The notes beneath the pieces were generated by a model. That model worked only from the letters and a program-made list of their open reading frames with translations, was not told the DNA's origin and searched no databases. Made by a program: the position numbers and the translations under genes. Shown here in pieces: positions 17,958 through 51,233 of a stretch of 64,000 nt of DNA; position 1 is the first letter of the stretch, and each line of letters starts with the position of its first letter. The DNA lies in NCBI GenBank assembly GCA_947073515.1, contig CAMTMC010000009.1:1-64000 (forward strand), written 5' to 3'. Source of the DNA: an uncultured bacterium. GTDB lineage: Bacteria; Bacillota; Clostridia; Oscillospirales; Oscillospiraceae.

Positions 17958-19713
17958 TCAATCCAGCCTAAATTTGCCTACCAGCTCGTTCATCAGCAGG
18001 GACTGCTCAGACAGCTCCTGGGCGGTAGCGGCGCTCTTCTCCGAGGTTGAGGAGGTCATCTGTACCACAGTGGAGATCTGCTCCAGCCCCTCCGAGACCT
18101 GGGAGATGGAGGTGGTCTGGCTCTCCACGGCCTCCACAACCGCGTTGACCTTCTCGGTCACATTGGCGGAGATGGCACTGGTCCTGCTCAGGGCCTCGGT
18201 CACCTGGCCCACCACCTGGCCGCCCTCCGAGACGGCGGCGATAGACCCCTCGATCAGTTCCTTCGTGGCCTTGGCGGCCTCATCGGATTTGGAGGCCAAG
18301 TTCCGCACCTCGTCGGCCACAACAGCGAAGCCCTGGCGCTGCCCGCCCGGGCGGCCTCCACGGCGGCGTTCAGGGCCAGGATATTGGTCTGGAACGCAAT
18401 ATTCTCAATGGTATCAATAATTTTTCCGATCTCCATGGAGGAACCGGAAATCCGCTCCATGGCGGTATTCAGATCCTTGACAAACCCCACACTGACGCCA
18501 ATCTGCTCGCCAGCCTGCTTGACAAAGCCGCCCGCCTCCTCGGCCGCCTCGGAGGTCTTCCGGTCCGTCTCGCCGATGCTGGCGGCGGTGACGGACAGCT
18601 CGTGGACAGCGCTGGCTTGCTCGGTAGCCCCCTGGCTCAGGGACTGGGCCCCATCGGACACATGGGAGGCGCTGTTGGCCACCATTCCGGCGGACTGGCT
18701 GATCTGGCAGAGGGTATTCTTCAGCGCGCTGTGGATCGCTTTGATAGACCGCTCAATGGTCACAAAATCGCCCCAGTATGTACGGGTAATCTCCTCCCGG
18801 AAGTCCCCCTCGCCCATCTTTTCCAGGTGGTGGGCCACATCCTGAAGTACATCGTTCAGCCGGACAATCGTAGTGTCCAGCGCTGTTCTCAGCTTGGCGG
18901 TCTCGTCCTTGGAGGCCACCTCAGGGGTGGGGGTTTTCAGGTCGCCGTCCGCCAGCTTTTCCAGCCGGGCGACACAGGCCCGGATCGGGCCGGAGATGGA
19001 CTGCCCCACCTTCACGGCCACAGGGTAGGTGGCGATCACCACCAGGAGCACCACCAGGACTGTGAGCATAATGCTCCGGTCCAGGGTGGCTTTAAACTCC
19101 CTCTGGCTGGCCTCAATGGCGACGCTCCACTCCTGATAACCCTCAATGGGGGCATAGCCCACAAACTTGTTGTCGCCATAGAAGTTATAGGCGCCAAACC
19201 CGCTCTCCCGCTGGATCATCCGCTGGTTCACCTCGGCCACGTCCGCCAGGCTGGGGTCCTCCTCCGCGGCCATAATCATGTTGGAGCCAGATTCCACCAC
19301 AGAGCGGTCCCGGTGCCCGATGACGTTCCCCCGTCTGTCCAGCACATAGGCCACGCCATCGTCGCCCATAGCCAGGTTGACCACAATATCAGACAGGAAG
19401 TCGGCGCTGATGGCGCCGTACACCACACCCGCAAAGCGGCCGTTCTCCAGAATGGGCACCTCCAGCAGAAAAATCATCCGCTGGCCGTCATTCATAATGT
19501 CAGAGATATAGGGCTCCTTTGTCTCCTTGCACTGCTGGAAATACTCCTCCCCGGCGTAGCTGTAGCCAGTGGAGGACATCCCGTCGGCGTCCATTTTGCC
19601 GGTGTAGAGAAAGCCGTGATCACTCCGATTAGGATGGAGCTAACCAGCACCACCGCCAACATACTGACTTGAATCTTTGACTTGATCGACTTCACGAGTA
19701 TCTTCCTCGCCAT
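17958..19713 (-). pseudogene. Methyl-accepting chemotaxis protein with a deletion and a frameshift
   Basis: Three pieces are visible. The start (ATG at 19,713) gives a basic N-terminus and first membrane helix (VSMLAVVLVSSILIGVI). Around 19,615 the frame changes to DHGFLYTGKMDADG, which enters the middle of a Cache-type sensor; roughly the first 80 residues of the extracellular domain appear to be missing. The second piece runs through the second membrane helix, HAMP and most of the signalling domain to EAARAG. Near 18,342 one base is missing; the other frame continues as QGFAVVADEVRNLASKSDEA to the end. The deletion is not a homopolymer error, so the gene is probably dead. Confidence 0.85.
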
Positions 19714-31926: not shown

Positions 31927-31981
31927 GTCAAATGCGGAACCGCCAGACCTTTTTATGGGGCCTGGCGGTTCCGCATTTGAC
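31927..31981. repeat. Perfect 20-bp inverted repeat
   Basis: GTCAAATGCGGAACCGCCAG (31927-31946) is reverse-complemented at 31962-31981 with a 15-base loop that contains TTTTT. It is not placed behind an intact gene and may be a terminator left from a lost gene or an element end. Confidence 0.7.
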
Positions 31982-32088
31982 ACTTACAGTCTTCCTGATG
32001 AAAAGAACAATTTGTACACGACCAATTAAATAGCGGGTATTTTTATTTTGATACAGCTTTTGCTGGGATATTTTACTCCCGCAATTAC

Positions 32089-34286
32089 CTAACTTTCAAG
32101 GTTTTCAAGCGCATTCACTGCCAAAAGGCTGGTTTCCTCATTCATCTTCCGCAGCTTTCGCACCATTTCTTTGGACTCATCCGACCGGTCGCGGACCTGT
32201 TCAGCCACCTTAGAGGTATGGGATGCTGTTTCCACAAAGAAATGGCTAGTGGTCTGGATCTGCTCATTGATTTGCCCCAGTTCGCCGACCACCTCGCCGC
32301 TATGCTCCAGAACGGTATGACACTGTTCCTGAATAGTGTGGATGTTCCGCACAATTTCGTCAAACAGCTGGTTGGTGTCAATCATCTGCTGCCGTCCGGT
32401 TTCTACCTGCCTCAGACTGACTTCAGAGCGCTCGATCATATTAGAGGTATCCGCTTTCATCCCCTGCAACAAGCCCTCGATGTCGGAAACGGCCTTTGCC
32501 GTTGCCTCCGACAAATCTTTTATGCTGCCGGCCACCACAGAAAACCCTTTGCCATGCGCGCCGGCGCGCGCCGCCTCAATCGAGGCGTTGAGCGAAAGGA
32601 TGGTCGTTTGCATAGAGATGTTCTCAATGCTTTTTAAGATTCCCTCGATCTGCCCGCAGCGCAGATTAAGCTGGCTGGCCAGTTCACTGGTCTTTTGCGT
32701 GGAGAAGAAAGTTTCCTCCATTTCCTGCATCGTTTGCCGCATGTTCTGCGCGCCTGTCTCAGATAGCGTGTTTGTTTTTTCCATATTCCGCAAGACAATT
32801 TATATACTGGTATCCGTGTTGCCGACGGAGGTATCAATGATCTGCATATAATCGTCACAGGTCCGCATCAACTGCATCTGCCGCTGCATCTGGGCGGAGA
32901 GATCATTCAAATCTTCAACGATGCTTTCCAGGACGACTGAAAAATTCGTGATCTCCCCATTGACCTCACCCGTGGAGCTATGGATTTTCTCTACCACTGT
33001 ATTCAATGTATTCTTTAACAGGGCCGTATTCTTGTCCTCCAGGGATTCCTTTCGTGCGGCCCGCCTGTCCATCACACGAATAAATGGCAGGTAAATCAGG
33101 ATACCTGTCGTAATATTGAGAATCTGGAGGACGCTGCCAGACAGGTGCCCGCCCGTGGCCAAATATCCGCTGATCAAAGGCGGCATGGCCCAATGTACCT
33201 CCGTTACAACCCGGGCAACCAGACCGAGCGACATCGCGATCCATGAAATGAGGGTTACCGTAAGCAGCGTGAGCAAAAAAGGGATCAGTAGAATCGGGTT
33301 CAAGATGATAGGAAAGCCGAACAGCACAATTTCATTCATGTTGAAGAGCGCAAAGATACCGCCCATTTTGGCGATGCCGCGGATATACCGGCTTCTGGCA
33401 ATAATGAACACCGCAATGATAATACACAGCGATGTCCCCGCTCCCCCCATAAATACAAAAGTATCCAGGAAGCCCTTGCTGATAATGGCAAGCTGCCCGT
33501 CAAAGGCGTTTGATTCATCGCGTACAGGTCGGTATTATGGATGAGATTCTCGCCGAACGCGCTGGCCATGATGCTGTCCATCACATTTCCGCCATGAATC
33601 CCGAAAAACCAGAAGATATGGATACCGAATACCAGAAACAAGGTGCCAACGAGCCCGCCTCCATCGGCCGCTGAAAAAAGGAATGACAGGGCGGTGTAAA
33701 TCCACTCGTCAATCCCCTTGCCGGAGGCCATTGAGATGACGCCGTTTGTGAGGGCAACACAGAAAACGGACAGCATGACAGGGAAAAGGGCCTCGAACAT
33801 TTGCCGCACTTCCTCCGCCGTATCCTCTGGAATATTGATTTTAAGATTGGAGCATAGGCGGTACAGCTCGGTGGACAGAATTGCGATCAGCATCGCCCCG
33901 AAAAGCCCGCTGGAGCCCAACCGGCTCAGCGAGATGCCGCCATCCGAGGTTGTAACGCAAATGGTCAGGTAGGCGGATACACTGGTGAGACCTGACAGCG
34001 TGCCGTTCAGATTGTAGGCGTTGCCGAGATAATAGCCCAAAGTCCATGCGATCAAAATCGCCATGATGGCGGTGCTGGCCAGCCAAATCGCACCATTTAC
34101 AGCCCGGATCACCTGTCCAACCGGAGTGGACAGGCCCGCCTGCACGATGTTGATGGGAATATTATTGATCGGCGACGCAATTGATCCCAAGATGATGACT
34201 GGAAGCGTGATCGTAAATGCTTTTTTAATAGAAATGATGTAACGGTTTTGGAATAGCCTGTCGGCCGTCTGCAAAATGCTTTCCAT
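32089..34286 (-). pseudogene. PTS EIIC permease fused to a chemoreceptor signalling domain, broken
   Basis: The start ATG at 34,286 lies behind AGAGGAGT. The first part is a complete type-3 (lactose/cellobiose-like) PTS EIIC with FWFFGIHGGNVMDSIMASAF and later ILIYLPFIRVMDRR. It is followed without HAMP by a linker and an MCP signalling domain with the hairpin tip ISMQTTILSLNASIEAARAG. About 732 codons in all. Two lesions split it: one missing base near 33,510 (the frame resumes as NAFDGQLAIISKGFLDTFVF) and an in-frame TAA at 32,800-32,802 in the linker, with the same frame continuing on both sides. PTS permeases phosphorylate sugars while importing them; fusion to an MCP would couple sugar binding or transport directly to CheA. 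TnpB debris starts 30-40 bases upstream, so the promoter may also be lost. Confidence 0.85.
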
Positions 34287-34326
34287 AATTACTCCTCTGA
34301 ATAGAACTTCATATGCAGATTTCACC

Positions 34327-34475
34327 AATCATACCATATTTCCCTGGTGGAAGCAATCCCTGCACTACAAGTTCCAGCAGTATATCACCTATTTGGCTGA
34401 AGCTGTGGGCATTCGGGTCATTGAACCGGAGGAAAGCTATACGTCCAAGGGATTTTTCACGGATGCAGAGCCCAA
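34327..34475 (+). mobile_element. TnpB fragment (IS200/IS605 type)
   Basis: An open stretch reads WWKQSLHYKFQQYITYLAEA, then GIRVIEPEESYTSKGFFTDA. The 'Y.A...GI.V....ESYTSK.SF.D' pattern is the C-terminal catalytic part of TnpB/IS605 OrfB proteins, just before the zinc-binding cysteines. Only about 50 codons remain, so it is not functional. Confidence 0.7.
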
Positions 34476-34481
34476 ACAGAT

Positions 34482-34815
34482 GTGGCATACCACTTGTTTC
34501 TGCGATATACGCTGAGCGAGGAGCTGCCTCACTTTTCCACGGTAAGCTATAACTTCTGGCATCGGTCCGCCGCGGAAACAATAGAGGCGGTATTTCGATG
34601 GGTCTTAGATGAGGCCGGGAATGCGGGAGCACTGGCCCCGGCGGCGGCGTTTATAGACGGGACGCACATCAATGCCAGCGCAAACCTGAAAAAGAAAATC
34701 AAACAAGAGGTACCGGCGGCGAAACAGTATCAGGAAGCGCTGCTGGCAGAGGTAAACGCAGACCGGGAAGCCCACGGAAAGAAGCCCTTCGATGACAACG
34801 CCGCCAGCATCTGCT
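34482..34815 (+). mobile_element. IS1182-type transposase fragment
   Basis: The frame starting at ATG 34,482 reads MAYHLFLRYTLSEELPHFST, AAAFIDGTHINASANLKKKI and [15 protein letters not shown]. This corresponds to the N-terminal and central part of IS1182-family DDE transposases (FIDGTH includes the first catalytic Asp). The similarity ends near 34,812, where the sequence joins unrelated text leading to the 24-base repeat and the recA copy. Both ends are truncated. Confidence 0.8.
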
Positions 34816-34834
34816 TTAGCCCTGAAAAACCGTG

Positions 34835-34858
34835 TTGCCCCTTATCAATCGAAGGTAT
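34835..34858 (+). repeat. 24-base near-repeat, copy 2
   Basis: This matches the copy at 30446-30469 in 22 of 24 bases, in the same orientation. It sits exactly between the IS1182 fragment and the upstream region of the decayed recA. Confidence 0.7.
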
Positions 34859-34905
34859 ATGTATGTAGAAAGCAATTCCAAAAAGGAATAAGGAGTGATA
34901 TAATC

Positions 34906-35800
34906 GTGGCAGCGAAAGAGAAAGATCCCGCTATCGAGCCAGCCGCGCCGGCTGCTGACCGGCAAAAAGCACTTGAGAGTGCTGTGGCCCAGATCGAGAA
35001 GGCATATGGTAAGGGCTCCATCATGCGGCTGGGGGAGAATACGGGCATTGTGGTGGAGGCTATCCGTACCGATTCCTTGGCTCTGGACATTGCCCTGGGC
35101 ATCGGCGGCGTGCCGAAAAGGCCGCATTGTTAAGATCTACGACCTGGAATCTTCCGGAAAGACTATCTTAGCCCTGTACATTCCCTCAGCCGGACACTGG
35201 CGAGCAGGGCCTAGAGATCTGCGAAGCTCTGGTACGCCCTAGCGCCTTGGATGTGGTGGTAGTAGATTCCGCTGCCGCGCTCACGCCCCGGGCTAAGACC
35301 AAGGGTAACATGGCGACAGCCATGCTGGTCTGCTGGCCCGGTTGATGAGCTAGGCTCTGTGCAAGCTGGCTGGGGCGGTAAGCAAAACCAACTGCATCGT
35401 CCTCTTCATCAACCAGCTGCGTGAGAAGGTGGGCGTAGTGTATGGAAACCGCACCCGGCTCAAAGTTATTCAAAACAAGGTGGCGCCCCCGTTCCGGGAA
35501 GTTGGGGTTGAGAGCCTGTACGGCGAGGGCCTCTCTAAGTGTGGTGAGCTGGTAGACCTTGCGGTCAAGCACGATATCATCCAGCGATCCGGCGCCTGGT
35601 TCTCTATGGGTGAAGCCAGAATCGGTCAGGGCAAAGAGACAGCCAAGCAGTTCCTCCAGGACGATTCCAAACTGACCAAGGACATTGAGATCCAGATCCG
35701 TGCTATCTCGGAAGCCGCCTTCCGCCTGATGGGCGTTGACAAACGCCGTGCCGTTAAGGGTAACGTTGCACATTCCAAGCGAAGCCCCTGTTTCTGTTCC
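34906..35800 (+). pseudogene. recA: Decayed recA copy
   Basis: A GTG start at 34,906 behind AAGGAGTG begins text unmistakably Rec[21 protein letters not shown], then [16 protein letters not shown] frameshift follows at about 35,125, and the P-loop reads DLESSGKT where RecA has GPESSGKT. About 45 residues are missing before [11 protein letters not shown]. Walker B survives as [17 protein letters not shown]. After further frame changes comes TNCIVLFINQLREKVGVVYG, joined directly to NRTRLKVIQNKVAPPFRE. About 38 residues (the L2 loop region) are deleted between two copies of the Gly-Asn coding motif. The rest reaches AAFRLM. Multiple deletions, frameshifts and stops rule out function; a working recA must exist elsewhere. 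Confidence 0.92.
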
Positions 35801-48509: not shown

Positions 48510-51233
48510 TTACGCCGCCTCGCCCTGCTTGGGGGGCCGGACGGCGGAGGCCGCCGCCTCATCCTTTCTCATAAACAGCAGGCCAAACGACCCGGGCCCG
48601 CAGTTGCACGCCACGGCGGAGGACGCCTTTTGCAGGTAAACCCGCTCAAACGGGCAGTACTGGCGCACCAAATTCTGGATATACTGTAGCTTCTCCTCAT
48701 CCAGCCCGGAATATGTGATGAACAAAATCCGCCGGTCGATGCTCCGTGTCTCCTGAAGCACCCGCTTGACATATTTCTTTGCGACATTGGCGAAGTTGCC
48801 GATCTCCACACCCCGCACTCCCATCCTGCTCTTTCTCAGCCCAAGTATCGGATGGAGCAGCAAAGCGTCACAGAGGATCTGGATCCGTTTTGAGAGACGT
48901 CCAGACTGGCACATCATGTGGGTGTCATTGATGATAAAGGCGGAGGAAATGAAATGCTCCATCCGTTTGACCAACGCAATGATCTCTGTCTTCGAGGCAT
49001 GATATTCCGCCATCTGGGCCGCGTACAGCACAGCCAGCCCCATACTGCTGGAGAGATGCCCGGAGTCGATCACAGAGACATTATCAAAGGATTTCGCCGC
49101 CTCCACGGCGTTTTGGAAGCCCGAGCTGACATGCTTGGCCATCGTGATATGGATCACATTCTGCGCCTCCGTCAGCTTTTCCGCAAAAAACCGCTCGTAA
49201 TCCTCCACGTCAGGGGGCTGGGAGTACCCCTTCCGCCCCTTTGCGATATGCCCCAGCAGCTCATCCGGCTTCAACTCCCGGCCATCCAGGAACCGGCCCT
49301 CATCTGTACAGACATAGTATGGGCATACAGAGATCCCAAAGGTCTTAATCAGGGATTCCGGGAGGTCACACACGCTGTCCGTTGTGACCAAAACAGACCG
49401 CCTCTTGGCCTGTTCAAAAATCAGGACATCCTTTTCCAGCTCTGACTGGCTGGCGTCCTCACACTGGCGCACCAGCTCCTTTGGCAGAATGTTCAGCACA
49501 GCCGCCTCCAGCAGCGCGCCGCTGACCGGCTTGGCCAGATAGCCGCTGAACCCCTCCTTCCGGTAGAGCTGCTGGTTGTCGCTGCCGGCGTTGGCGGTCA
49601 GGGCCACCACAGGGACATCCTGGCACATCCCCCCCGGCTGTTTGCGCAGGGCGTGGAGGCACTCAATCCCGTCCATCTCCGGCATTAAATGATCCATTAA
49701 AATGCAGTCATAGTAGTGGTTCTGGGTCAGCTTCAGGCACTCAATCCCGCTGGCGGCGGTGTCGATCTGGACCTTGGTCTCCGCCAGCAGCTTCGTCACC
49801 ACGGTCAAGTTCATCTCGTTGTCGTCCACCACCAGGATATGGGCGTCCGGCGCCTCAAAGCTCTGCCGGTAGGTCCCCTCGTTATGGAGCTTTACCCGGG
49901 AGTCCAGCGTAAACCGCCCCAGCGCTTTCTCATCCACGATATCCTGCTCCAGCGTGACAATGAACTTCGAACCCTTCGTGTAGACACTGTTTACGCTGAT
50001 CTCGCCGCCCATCAGCTCCACCAGCTGGTGGACAATGCTCAGCCCCAGCCCGGTCCCCTCAATGTGGCGGTTTTTCTCCTCGTCTACCCGCCGGAAGGCA
50101 TTAAACAGGTAGGGGATATTCTCCTTTTTCACCCCCTGCCCGGTATCCTCCACAGAGTACCAGACCCGCACCCGGTTCACGCCCTGACGCTCACAGCGGA
50201 CGGAGAGGGTAACAGAGCCCTCGCTGGTGTATTTCACCGCGTTGTTCAGCAGGTTGATGAGAATCTGCTTGATCCGCACCTCATCTCCGCAGAGCATGCT
50301 CGGGATGGACGGATCTACCTGCAGCTTGAACTCCAGGCCCTTCTCCCTGGCTTTAATCCAGATCATATTGACAATCTCGGAAAAGAGCGTCCCCGTCTCA
50401 TAGGAGGTATTGATGATCTCCATCTTGCCCGACTTGATTTTGGATATGTCCAGGATGTCGTTGATCAAAGTGAGCAGCAGTTTGCTGGCCCCCTGGATAT
50501 TCCTGGCGTTCTCCGCCACCTCCTCCGGGATGTCCCCCCGCAGGGTGATCTCATTCAATCCGATGATCGTATTGATGGGGGTGCGGATCTCGTGGCTCAT
50601 GCTGGAAAAGAAGTGGTTCTCCGCCTGGTTCAGCTCCTCAATCTCCTTTTTCTGCTGCTGGGTGAGGGCGTTTTCCTCCTCATACATCCGGTTCAGGAAC
50701 ATGAGCAGCACACTGGTGAGCAGTCCCACCATGACCATGGAGAAGGCGGAGTCCATAAAGGAGCTCTGCTGCGTGCTCAGGGCGGCCAGCTCCGGGTACT
50801 TGTAAGCGATGCCATAGCAAATCAGTGTCTCCGCCGCGCACAGCACAAAAAACACGGCCATGCGCTTCCCCTGCAGGGTGATGCAGACGTAGATAAAACA
50901 GAACACAAACCACTCCGGCACCCCGCTGTAAAATCCGCCCGCTGTAAAGAATGTAAAAGGAAACAGCACCAGCTGCAACACCACAATGACCGTGGCCCCC
51001 GTCTGGATCCGCCCCTTCCGGATGCTGATCCGCACGATTTCCGTGACGATCACCAGGCTTACCACCAGAACGGCGATATTCAAGAGATCCCTGCCCATGG
51101 GCAAGGTAAAGATCAGCGCTACCATGAAGATCGCCGTGGCGATACGGAACATCCGCTCCTGTAAGCTGATCCTATGGTCAAAGATGATATCAAACCATTT
51201 TTTAATCACACAAATTCCCGCTCCTTCCAACAT
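48510..51233 (-). CDS. Hybrid histidine kinase-receiver fused to a DegV lipid-binding domain
   Basis: The 907-residue protein has an N-terminal membrane part of about six helices (30-180), a kinase core with His214 (SMSHEIRTP), an ATPase domain with GTGLGLSIV (about 393-401), a receiver with phospho-acceptor Asp514 (ILMDHLMPEMDG) and Lys568, and from about residue 613 a complete DegV domain: VLVTTDSVCDLPESLIKTFG, then SSGFQNAVEAAKSF and, near the end, VACNCGPGSFGLLF. DegV proteins bind one long-chain fatty acid; in FakB they present it to the kinase FakA. Here the domain could let fatty-acid status tune the phosphorelay. The start may instead be GTG 51,209, which has better spacing behind AAGGAG. 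Confidence 0.9.
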   Translation of the reverse strand: MLEGAGICVIKKWFDIIFDHRISLQERMFRIATAIFMVALIFTLPMGRDLLNIAVLVVSLVIVTEIVRISIRKGRIQTGATVIVVLQLVLFPFTFFTAGGFYSGVPEWFVFCFIYVCITLQGKRMAVFFVLCAAETLICYGIAYKYPELAALSTQQSSFMDSAFSMVMVGLLTSVLLMFLNRMYEEENALTQQQKKEIEELNQAENHFFSSMSHEIRTPINTIIGLNEITLRGDIPEEVAENARNIQGASKLLLTLINDILDISKIKSGKMEIINTSYETGTLFSEIVNMIWIKAREKGLEFKLQVDPSIPSMLCGDEVRIKQILINLLNNAVKYTSEGSVTLSVRCERQGVNRVRVWYSVEDTGQGVKKENIPYLFNAFRRVDEEKNRHIEGTGLGLSIVHQLVELMGGEISVNSVYTKGSKFIVTLEQDIVDEKALGRFTLDSRVKLHNEGTYRQSFEAPDAHILVVDDNEMNLTVVTKLLAETKVQIDTAASGIECLKLTQNHYYDCILMDHLMPEMDGIECLHALRKQPGGMCQDVPVVALTANAGSDNQQLYRKEGFSGYLAKPVSGALLEAAVLNILPKELVRQCEDASQSELEKDVLIFEQAKRRSVLVTTDSVCDLPESLIKTFGISVCPYYVCTDEGRFLDGRELKPDELLGHIAKGRKGYSQPPDVEDYERFFAEKLTEAQNVIHITMAKHVSSGFQNAVEAAKSFDNVSVIDSGHLSSSMGLAVLYAAQMAEYHASKTEIIALVKRMEHFISSAFIINDTHMMCQSGRLSKRIQILCDALLLHPILGLRKSRMGVRGVEIGNFANVAKKYVKRVLQETRSIDRRILFITYSGLDEEKLQYIQNLVRQYCPFERVYLQKASSAVACNCGPGSFGLLFMRKDEAAASAVRPPKQGEAA

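Follow-up and report, generated by a model that had tools for sequence, protein, structure and literature searches.

A chemoreceptor (MCP) signalling domain is fused directly to a PTS sugar permease (EIIC) in a gene that is broken in the window, the whole 64,000-nucleotide stretch of DNA analysed here, and intact in eight other genomes. This joining of a sensor-type EIIC to an MCP rod is real, rare and mobile. Ancestrally the fusion was most likely a receptor that sensed sugar directly, and its link to chemotaxis is most likely weakening or lost in most of the intact copies found. The explanation that we favour, at a probability of roughly 55%, is that a PTS permease gave rise to a membrane sugar sensor, which was coupled to CheA ancestrally and has been decoupling in most of the carriers found.

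The window gene and its intact relatives

The fusion gene lies on the minus strand at 32092-34286, with its ATG at 34286 and its stop after 32092. EIIC is followed by the MCP signalling domain in one ancestral frame that is interrupted by two lesions in the window copy. The features of the gene, in its reading direction, are:

34328..34356, minus strand: promoter-like pair TTGCTT-17-TATGAT upstream of the start (spotted by eye)
33501..34286, minus strand: EIIC permease, first part, 262 aa, with FFGIHGG motif (PF02378 89.4 bits; TIGR00410 lacE 135.1 bits)
33501..33534, minus strand: lesion 1, a reading-frame change (ORF reading)
33049..33534, minus strand: EIIC permease, last part, with FNMNE motif (within the 244-codon piece 32803-33534: PF02378 42.5 bits; TIGR00410 165.4 bits over residues 16-163 of 244)
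32803..33048, minus strand: linker, taken to begin the cytoplasmic rod (no Pfam match, no HAMP; in the intact relative L075, MCP 2ch7 aligns over residues 433-722)
32800..32802, minus strand: lesion 2, an in-frame stop codon (ORF reading)
32092..32799, minus strand: MCP signalling domain, 236 aa (PF00015 110.4 bits)
32506..32631, minus strand: MCP hairpin tip (CheA/CheW contact region), canonical in the window copy (tip alignment)

All three pieces exceed their curated Pfam cut-offs (PF02378, PF02378 and PF00015), and neither EIIC piece exceeds that of TIGR00410. The sequence-only reading had described a broken gene with FFGIHGG and SLNASIEAARAG strings; both strings are present, as are the frame change within 33501-33534 and the in-frame stop at 32800-32802. 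It had named the permease a complete type-3 EIIC, of which the EIIC assignment stands (PF02378) and the subfamily is corrected to lactose/cellobiose (TIGR00410 lacE). The absence of Cache and HAMP domains was likewise upheld, with no Pfam match to either in the three window pieces and none to HAMP (PF00672, E 0.01) or Cache in the eight intact relatives. The window copy is a decayed or mis-assembled fusion gene. Its lesions are probably recent or errors, since the copy is broken yet its pN/pS ratios, given below, are low. Between roughly the -10 box and the ATG, the sequence resembles that of other copies when the printed flanks are compared by eye. Two further observations by eye concern the flanks: an inverted repeat with arms of about 20-25 nt and a short loop at 31927-31983, downstream of the fusion, and short ORFs at 34309-34868 that resemble transposase remnants and have no Pfam match.

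The GTDB species collection was scanned with the second EIIC piece and the linker by means of six short peptide patterns, and 24 related loci were recovered. In eight of these (L075-L082, from eight other genomes) a single open frame of 740-780 codons spans all three pieces. Identity to the window is 84-88% in EIIC part 1, 83-88% in part 2 and 75-81% in the MCP, and every copy matches both PF02378 (115-128 bits) and PF00015 (65-104 bits, cut-off 34.6). A ninth fusion, L083, is cut by its contig end; the remaining 15 loci are ten EIIC proteins with a long extra domain and five stand-alone EIICs. Fusion hosts include Acetatifactor muris, Schaedlerella arabinosiphila, Mediterraneibacter agrestimuris and strain 1XD21-70, together with several metagenome genomes. 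With search patterns derived from one sequence, eight is a lower bound for close relatives, and the count is silent on distant ones. The sequence-only reading had proposed one ancestral frame and a real family, and had named the lack of both domains in one intact frame elsewhere as the outcome that would speak against it; eight intact ORFs that hold both domains were found in eight other genomes, and the family is thus real. A window copy that is broken and comes from a 65-contig draft genome might suggest an assembly artefact or a deletion that joined two separate genes, a reading refuted, and left with almost no probability, by eight intact single-frame copies from different records (several of them isolates or strains) and different gene neighbourhoods.

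The EIIC-MCP plan is rare. The EIIC of the fusion was found in none of 36 genomes of the same genus, and no EIIC-MCP turned up among the loci retrieved from three partly overlapping sets of genomes (394 of the order, 391 of the class and 200 of the family). The 397 genomes of the Schaedlerella host's family gave 71 matches in 63 genomes. Thirty of these loci were inspected and the other 41 matches, judged by length and identity alone, were at most 37% identical. Only the known fusion of the Schaedlerella host and a fragment, L253, were found among the inspected loci, the other 28 having no MCP in the EIIC frame. L253, from another genome, retains about 111 codons of a truncated first part at 85% identity, which indicates that other broken copies exist. 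At L270 an MCP frame stands at the locus edge beside a 712-codon EIIC protein and is possibly a neighbouring receptor gene. Within the open-access literature searched, no paper on an EIIC-MCP fusion was found.

Permease ancestry, surroundings and movement between hosts

TIGR00410 was matched over its full length at 278-291 bits (cut-off 236) in all four intact fusions examined, and the PF02378 cut-off was exceeded in all eight. The scores of intact fusions against the transporter equivalogs were lower than required, at 278-291 of 434.45 bits for cellobiose (TIGR00359) and 151-157 of 614.4 bits for lactose (TIGR00394). Over its whole length (residues 4-414) the EIIC of L075 aligns with 3qnq, a solved cellobiose IIC, at E 4.4e-58. 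The residues that match H250 and E334 of 3qnq, which we take to be substrate residues, are kept in L075 (positions hand-counted) and do not vary among the 19 EIICs aligned.

A tree of 79 EIIC domains, midpoint-rooted only, was built with the window copy left out and with rows excluded if they missed one of the two EIIC pieces, fell outside 350-520 aa or were identical. The EIICs of the fusions (eight plus L083) and of EIIC-EAL proteins (31 plus L016) were found on one side of a branch with support 97/98, with stand-alone EIICs outside. Each set forms its own branch, the fusions at 100/100 with a long stem (1.48) and the EIIC-EAL set at 97/96. Pfam recognised EIIC in all 32 EIIC-EAL comparison rows and EAL in 31 (L016 is cut by a contig end); in the fusions no EAL domain follows the EIIC and the MCP stands in its place. 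As EIIC-MCP and EIIC-EAL proteins group together apart from the stand-alone EIICs, the EIIC resembles a sensor to which different outputs can be attached. On a plain reading of the tree, a single EIIC lineage would have left transport for sensing, bearing either EAL or MCP, and the sister grouping would be a case of output exchange on one sensor. The C-terminus of the EIIC, where the MCP sits, presumably faces the cytoplasm, since EAL must be cytoplasmic. EIIC-EAL proteins thus resemble the fusion in having an N-terminal EIIC of the same subfamily and a C-terminal cytoplasmic signalling output, and differ from it in the kind of output, EAL rather than an MCP rod, and in an EIIC only about 21-31% (part 1) and 34-52% (part 2) identical to that of the window. 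PMC8846402 lists PTS_EIIC among the rare domains that are putative receivers in c-di-GMP proteins.

Matches to PTS_IIB (PF02302) were found in five of ten carrier genomes and not in the other five, namely the window's own genome and the hosts of L075, L077, L082 and L083, several carriers being incomplete drafts. The window's own genome does encode an EIIBCA of the glucose type. A setting among che or PTS EIIA/EIIB genes, raised by the sequence-only reading, was not seen: the 22 neighbouring ORFs scanned in nine loci, 13 of them with any Pfam match, included no PTS or CheA/CheW gene and were of types such as purine permease, aminotransferase, UvrD, rRNA/tRNA methylase and hybrid kinase. In L080 (789-7674) the intact fusion gene lies between matches to hsdM and hsdS of a type I restriction system. 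Full isolation from chemoreceptor genes is counted against by another MCP gene about 7.5 kb away on the same contig in the L075 host, and by a second chemoreceptor in the window at 18066-19594, about 14 kb from the fusion gene, which is a dCache-HAMP-MCP broken by a split of its MCP domain over two frames near 18320. PTS transport by the fusion looks unlikely in the half of the carriers that have no match to a lactose/cellobiose-type EIIB, given also that no PTS gene was found beside the fusion; phosphorylating transport is possible in the five carriers with PF02302 matches. Stand-alone lactose/cellobiose EIICs (LacE/CelB/ChbC type; 3qnq) therefore share with the fusion a full-length EIIC, as scored by TIGR00410 above, and are unlike it in that the fusion is a lone gene without EIIB or EIIA beside it, carries an extra MCP rod and has a separate position in the tree.

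RecA of the window host is 68.5-72.3% identical to that of the nine other carriers and 91.5-95.4% identical to that of four same-genus genomes, and the fusion is 75-88% identical by part between the window and the other carriers. Synonymous divergence of the fusion was lower than that of recA, a single gene near saturation, in 36 of 36 pairs. The DNA shared by the copies is mostly the gene and a few tens of bases per side, reaching up to about 260 bases upstream and 205 downstream in L079, L080 and L082. The simplest reading of these comparisons is horizontal transfer of the fusion gene between distant hosts. Three vehicles were considered and rejected: a transposon, as no upstream/downstream flank repeat and no common neighbour was found in eight loci and the window; a plasmid, as no match in the plasmid search reached 60% identity and the two highest-ranking ones carry EAL protein annotations; and a phage, as the viral scan gave no relative. 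Broken recA remnants (34966-35626, plus strand) lie near the fusion and are nearest to the window's own genus, the intact recA being on another contig. A Lachnospiraceae contaminant contig was judged unlikely on the basis of these remnants, which score 311-338 summed bits against the own genus and 233-269 against the nine fusion hosts, from one gene fragment.

The MCP rod, its tip and selection on the parts

The EIIC match of L075 ends at 414, and some 20 residues further on the alignment with the solved T. maritima MCP 2ch7 sets in, so that hardly any sequence separates the hairpin from the permease. With the glutamate of the tip at residue 571, the arms measure about 157 and 161 residues and form a symmetric hairpin, of a length class that we take to be 44H. 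HAMP domains are common in MCPs, yet dispensable.

All 97 other MCP matches above the cut-off in the nine other carriers (108 matches less 8 fusions and 3 under the cut-off) were used as a reference for the tip, with positions named by what we take to be Tsr numbering. Conservation among the 97 is near complete: N381, E385 and F396 are kept in 97, the Gly of GRG in 96, V398 in 94 and R388 in 90 (4 His, 3 Asn). All six positions carry the prevailing residue (N, E, R, G, F and V) in the window copy and in L075. Each of L076-L082 departs from at least one of N, G and F, positions kept in 96 or 97 of the 97, and R388, under the same assumed numbering, is His in five of the eight intact copies. Some changes are specific to a copy (L077 has S for N, L078 has G for F, and L081 lacks one residue), and others recur at the same sites and look independent (G to E or V, R to H). 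Of the 41 positions of a generic tip, L076-L082 match 17-22, L075 matches 22 and the window copy 24, whereas the 97 other MCPs match 22-35, with a median of 32. By this overall measure L075 lies at the low edge of ordinary MCPs. As the changes differ between copies, they look like loss and not like a new shared motif.

Selection on the parts was followed by pN/pS, obtained by a counting method with codon bootstrap ranges, in which pairs are mutually dependent and ratios run high at short distance. Within L076-L082 the ratio was 0.19 (0.14-0.24) in the EIIC, 0.32 (0.20-0.48) in the linker, 0.49 (0.38-0.63) in the whole MCP, 0.43 (0.33-0.59) in the MCP arms and 0.80 (0.43-1.55) in the tip, the last being indistinguishable from neutral. 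For EIIC, MCP and tip respectively, the ratios were 0.16, 0.26 and 0.29 (0.18-0.49) between the window copy and L076-L082, 0.16, 0.34 and 0.64 (0.37-1.25) between L075 and L076-L082, and 0.15, 0.28 and 0.43 (0.23-0.79) between the window copy and L075. The EIIC is thus constrained in all four comparisons (0.15-0.19), and the tip is the fastest part in most of them, even between the window copy and L075, which is the opposite of ordinary MCPs. In several pairs of L076-L082 the dS of the MCP is below that of the EIIC, pointing to possible recombination that could distort the ratios. The tip is eroding in seven of the eight intact copies (L076-L082) while the EIIC stays constrained. Hosts without chemotaxis were rejected as the cause of this erosion, since all ten carriers have CheW-domain proteins and the nine other than the window's own genome have 6-25 MCP matches each; CheA-sized frames are 698-734 aa long in these nine and 400 aa in the window's own genome.

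Explanations of the fusion and comparison with known systems

The favoured sensor explanation would work as follows. A lactose/cellobiose-family EIIC that has abandoned PTS transport would bind a beta-linked disaccharide, perhaps of the cellobiose or chitobiose type, from outside. Its outward/inward movement would pass via the C-terminal helix straight into the MCP coiled-coil hairpin, with no HAMP between, and the hairpin would thereby alter CheA activity in the ancestor of the window copy and in L075. L076-L082 would be partly or fully uncoupled from CheA. A sensor is suggested because the pocket residues are kept, an EIIB match is absent in half of the carriers and the gene stands alone; CheA control is less likely in L076-L082 because the tip departs at near-fixed positions and has a pN/pS of 0.80. 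The direct sugar-to-flagellum receptor put forward by the sequence-only reading is plausible for the window ancestor and L075 with their canonical tips, and appears doubtful for L076-L082, where near-fixed tip residues are lost and the rate of change is indistinguishable from neutral.

It is conceivable, though we think it rather unlikely, that selection acts on the EIIC part, be it a permease, a facilitator or a regulator that binds sugar, and that the MCP is a decaying passenger whose chemotaxis link is past or never worked. Such a passenger would account for the rise of pN/pS in L076-L082 from 0.19 in the EIIC to 0.49 in the MCP and 0.80 in the tip, and for the His at position 388 (presumed Tsr numbering) in five of eight intact copies where 90 of 97 other MCPs have Arg. 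It fits poorly with an MCP that is full length and in frame in all eight copies with an intact EIIC and no contig-end cut, with arms that are still constrained (0.43, 0.33-0.59), with the canonical tips of the window copy and L075, and with the five of ten carriers that have no EIIB match. The constraint on the arms while the tip changes, with the same sites hit repeatedly (G to E or V, R to H), could instead mean that the rod enters receptor arrays or pairs with some other partner and exerts no control over CheA, as a modulator or decoy whose altered tip is kept for that purpose. We consider this improbable, as the tip changes differ by copy, as described above for L077, L078 and L081.

In E. 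coli PTS chemotaxis, the signal is believed to travel via EI, and likely also EIIA-Glc, binding to receptor-CheA-CheW complexes, according to PMC4996493. The fusion would also report PTS-type sugars to CheA and is unlike that system in that permease and receptor are one protein. If the permease is physically the receptor, it would provide a second route beside the indirect EI-borne signal and open the question of how a coiled coil reads a transport cycle. MCPs with dCache or other sensors have the same PF00015 hairpin, and the tip of L075 and the window copy is canonical like theirs; the sensor of the fusion differs in being a whole multi-helix permease with no Cache or HAMP found, and seven copies have eroded tips. 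This graded erosion in hosts that keep other canonical MCPs amounts to a natural experiment on receptor uncoupling. The most far-reaching reading would be a permease-derived sensor module whose output has been exchanged between EAL and MCP, a permease fold acting as chemoreceptor in a phosphorylation-independent link from sugar to CheA, a lone gene spreading between orders of Clostridia, and a series of intact to eroded tips that records the uncoupling; we put this combination forward tentatively, at slightly below even odds.

Ks-Amt5, in which an ammonium transporter is joined to a histidine kinase, is likewise a transporter fold that has become a sensor with a signalling output attached; its Amt domain is described in PMC8534201 as translocating ammonium inefficiently. 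Ks-Amt5 is unlike the present fusion in its substrate, ammonium, in its histidine kinase output and in its unrelated fold. The window itself encodes, at 48510-51233, a 907-aa hybrid histidine kinase with a receiver and a C-terminal DegV domain (PF02645), to our knowledge an unusual combination.
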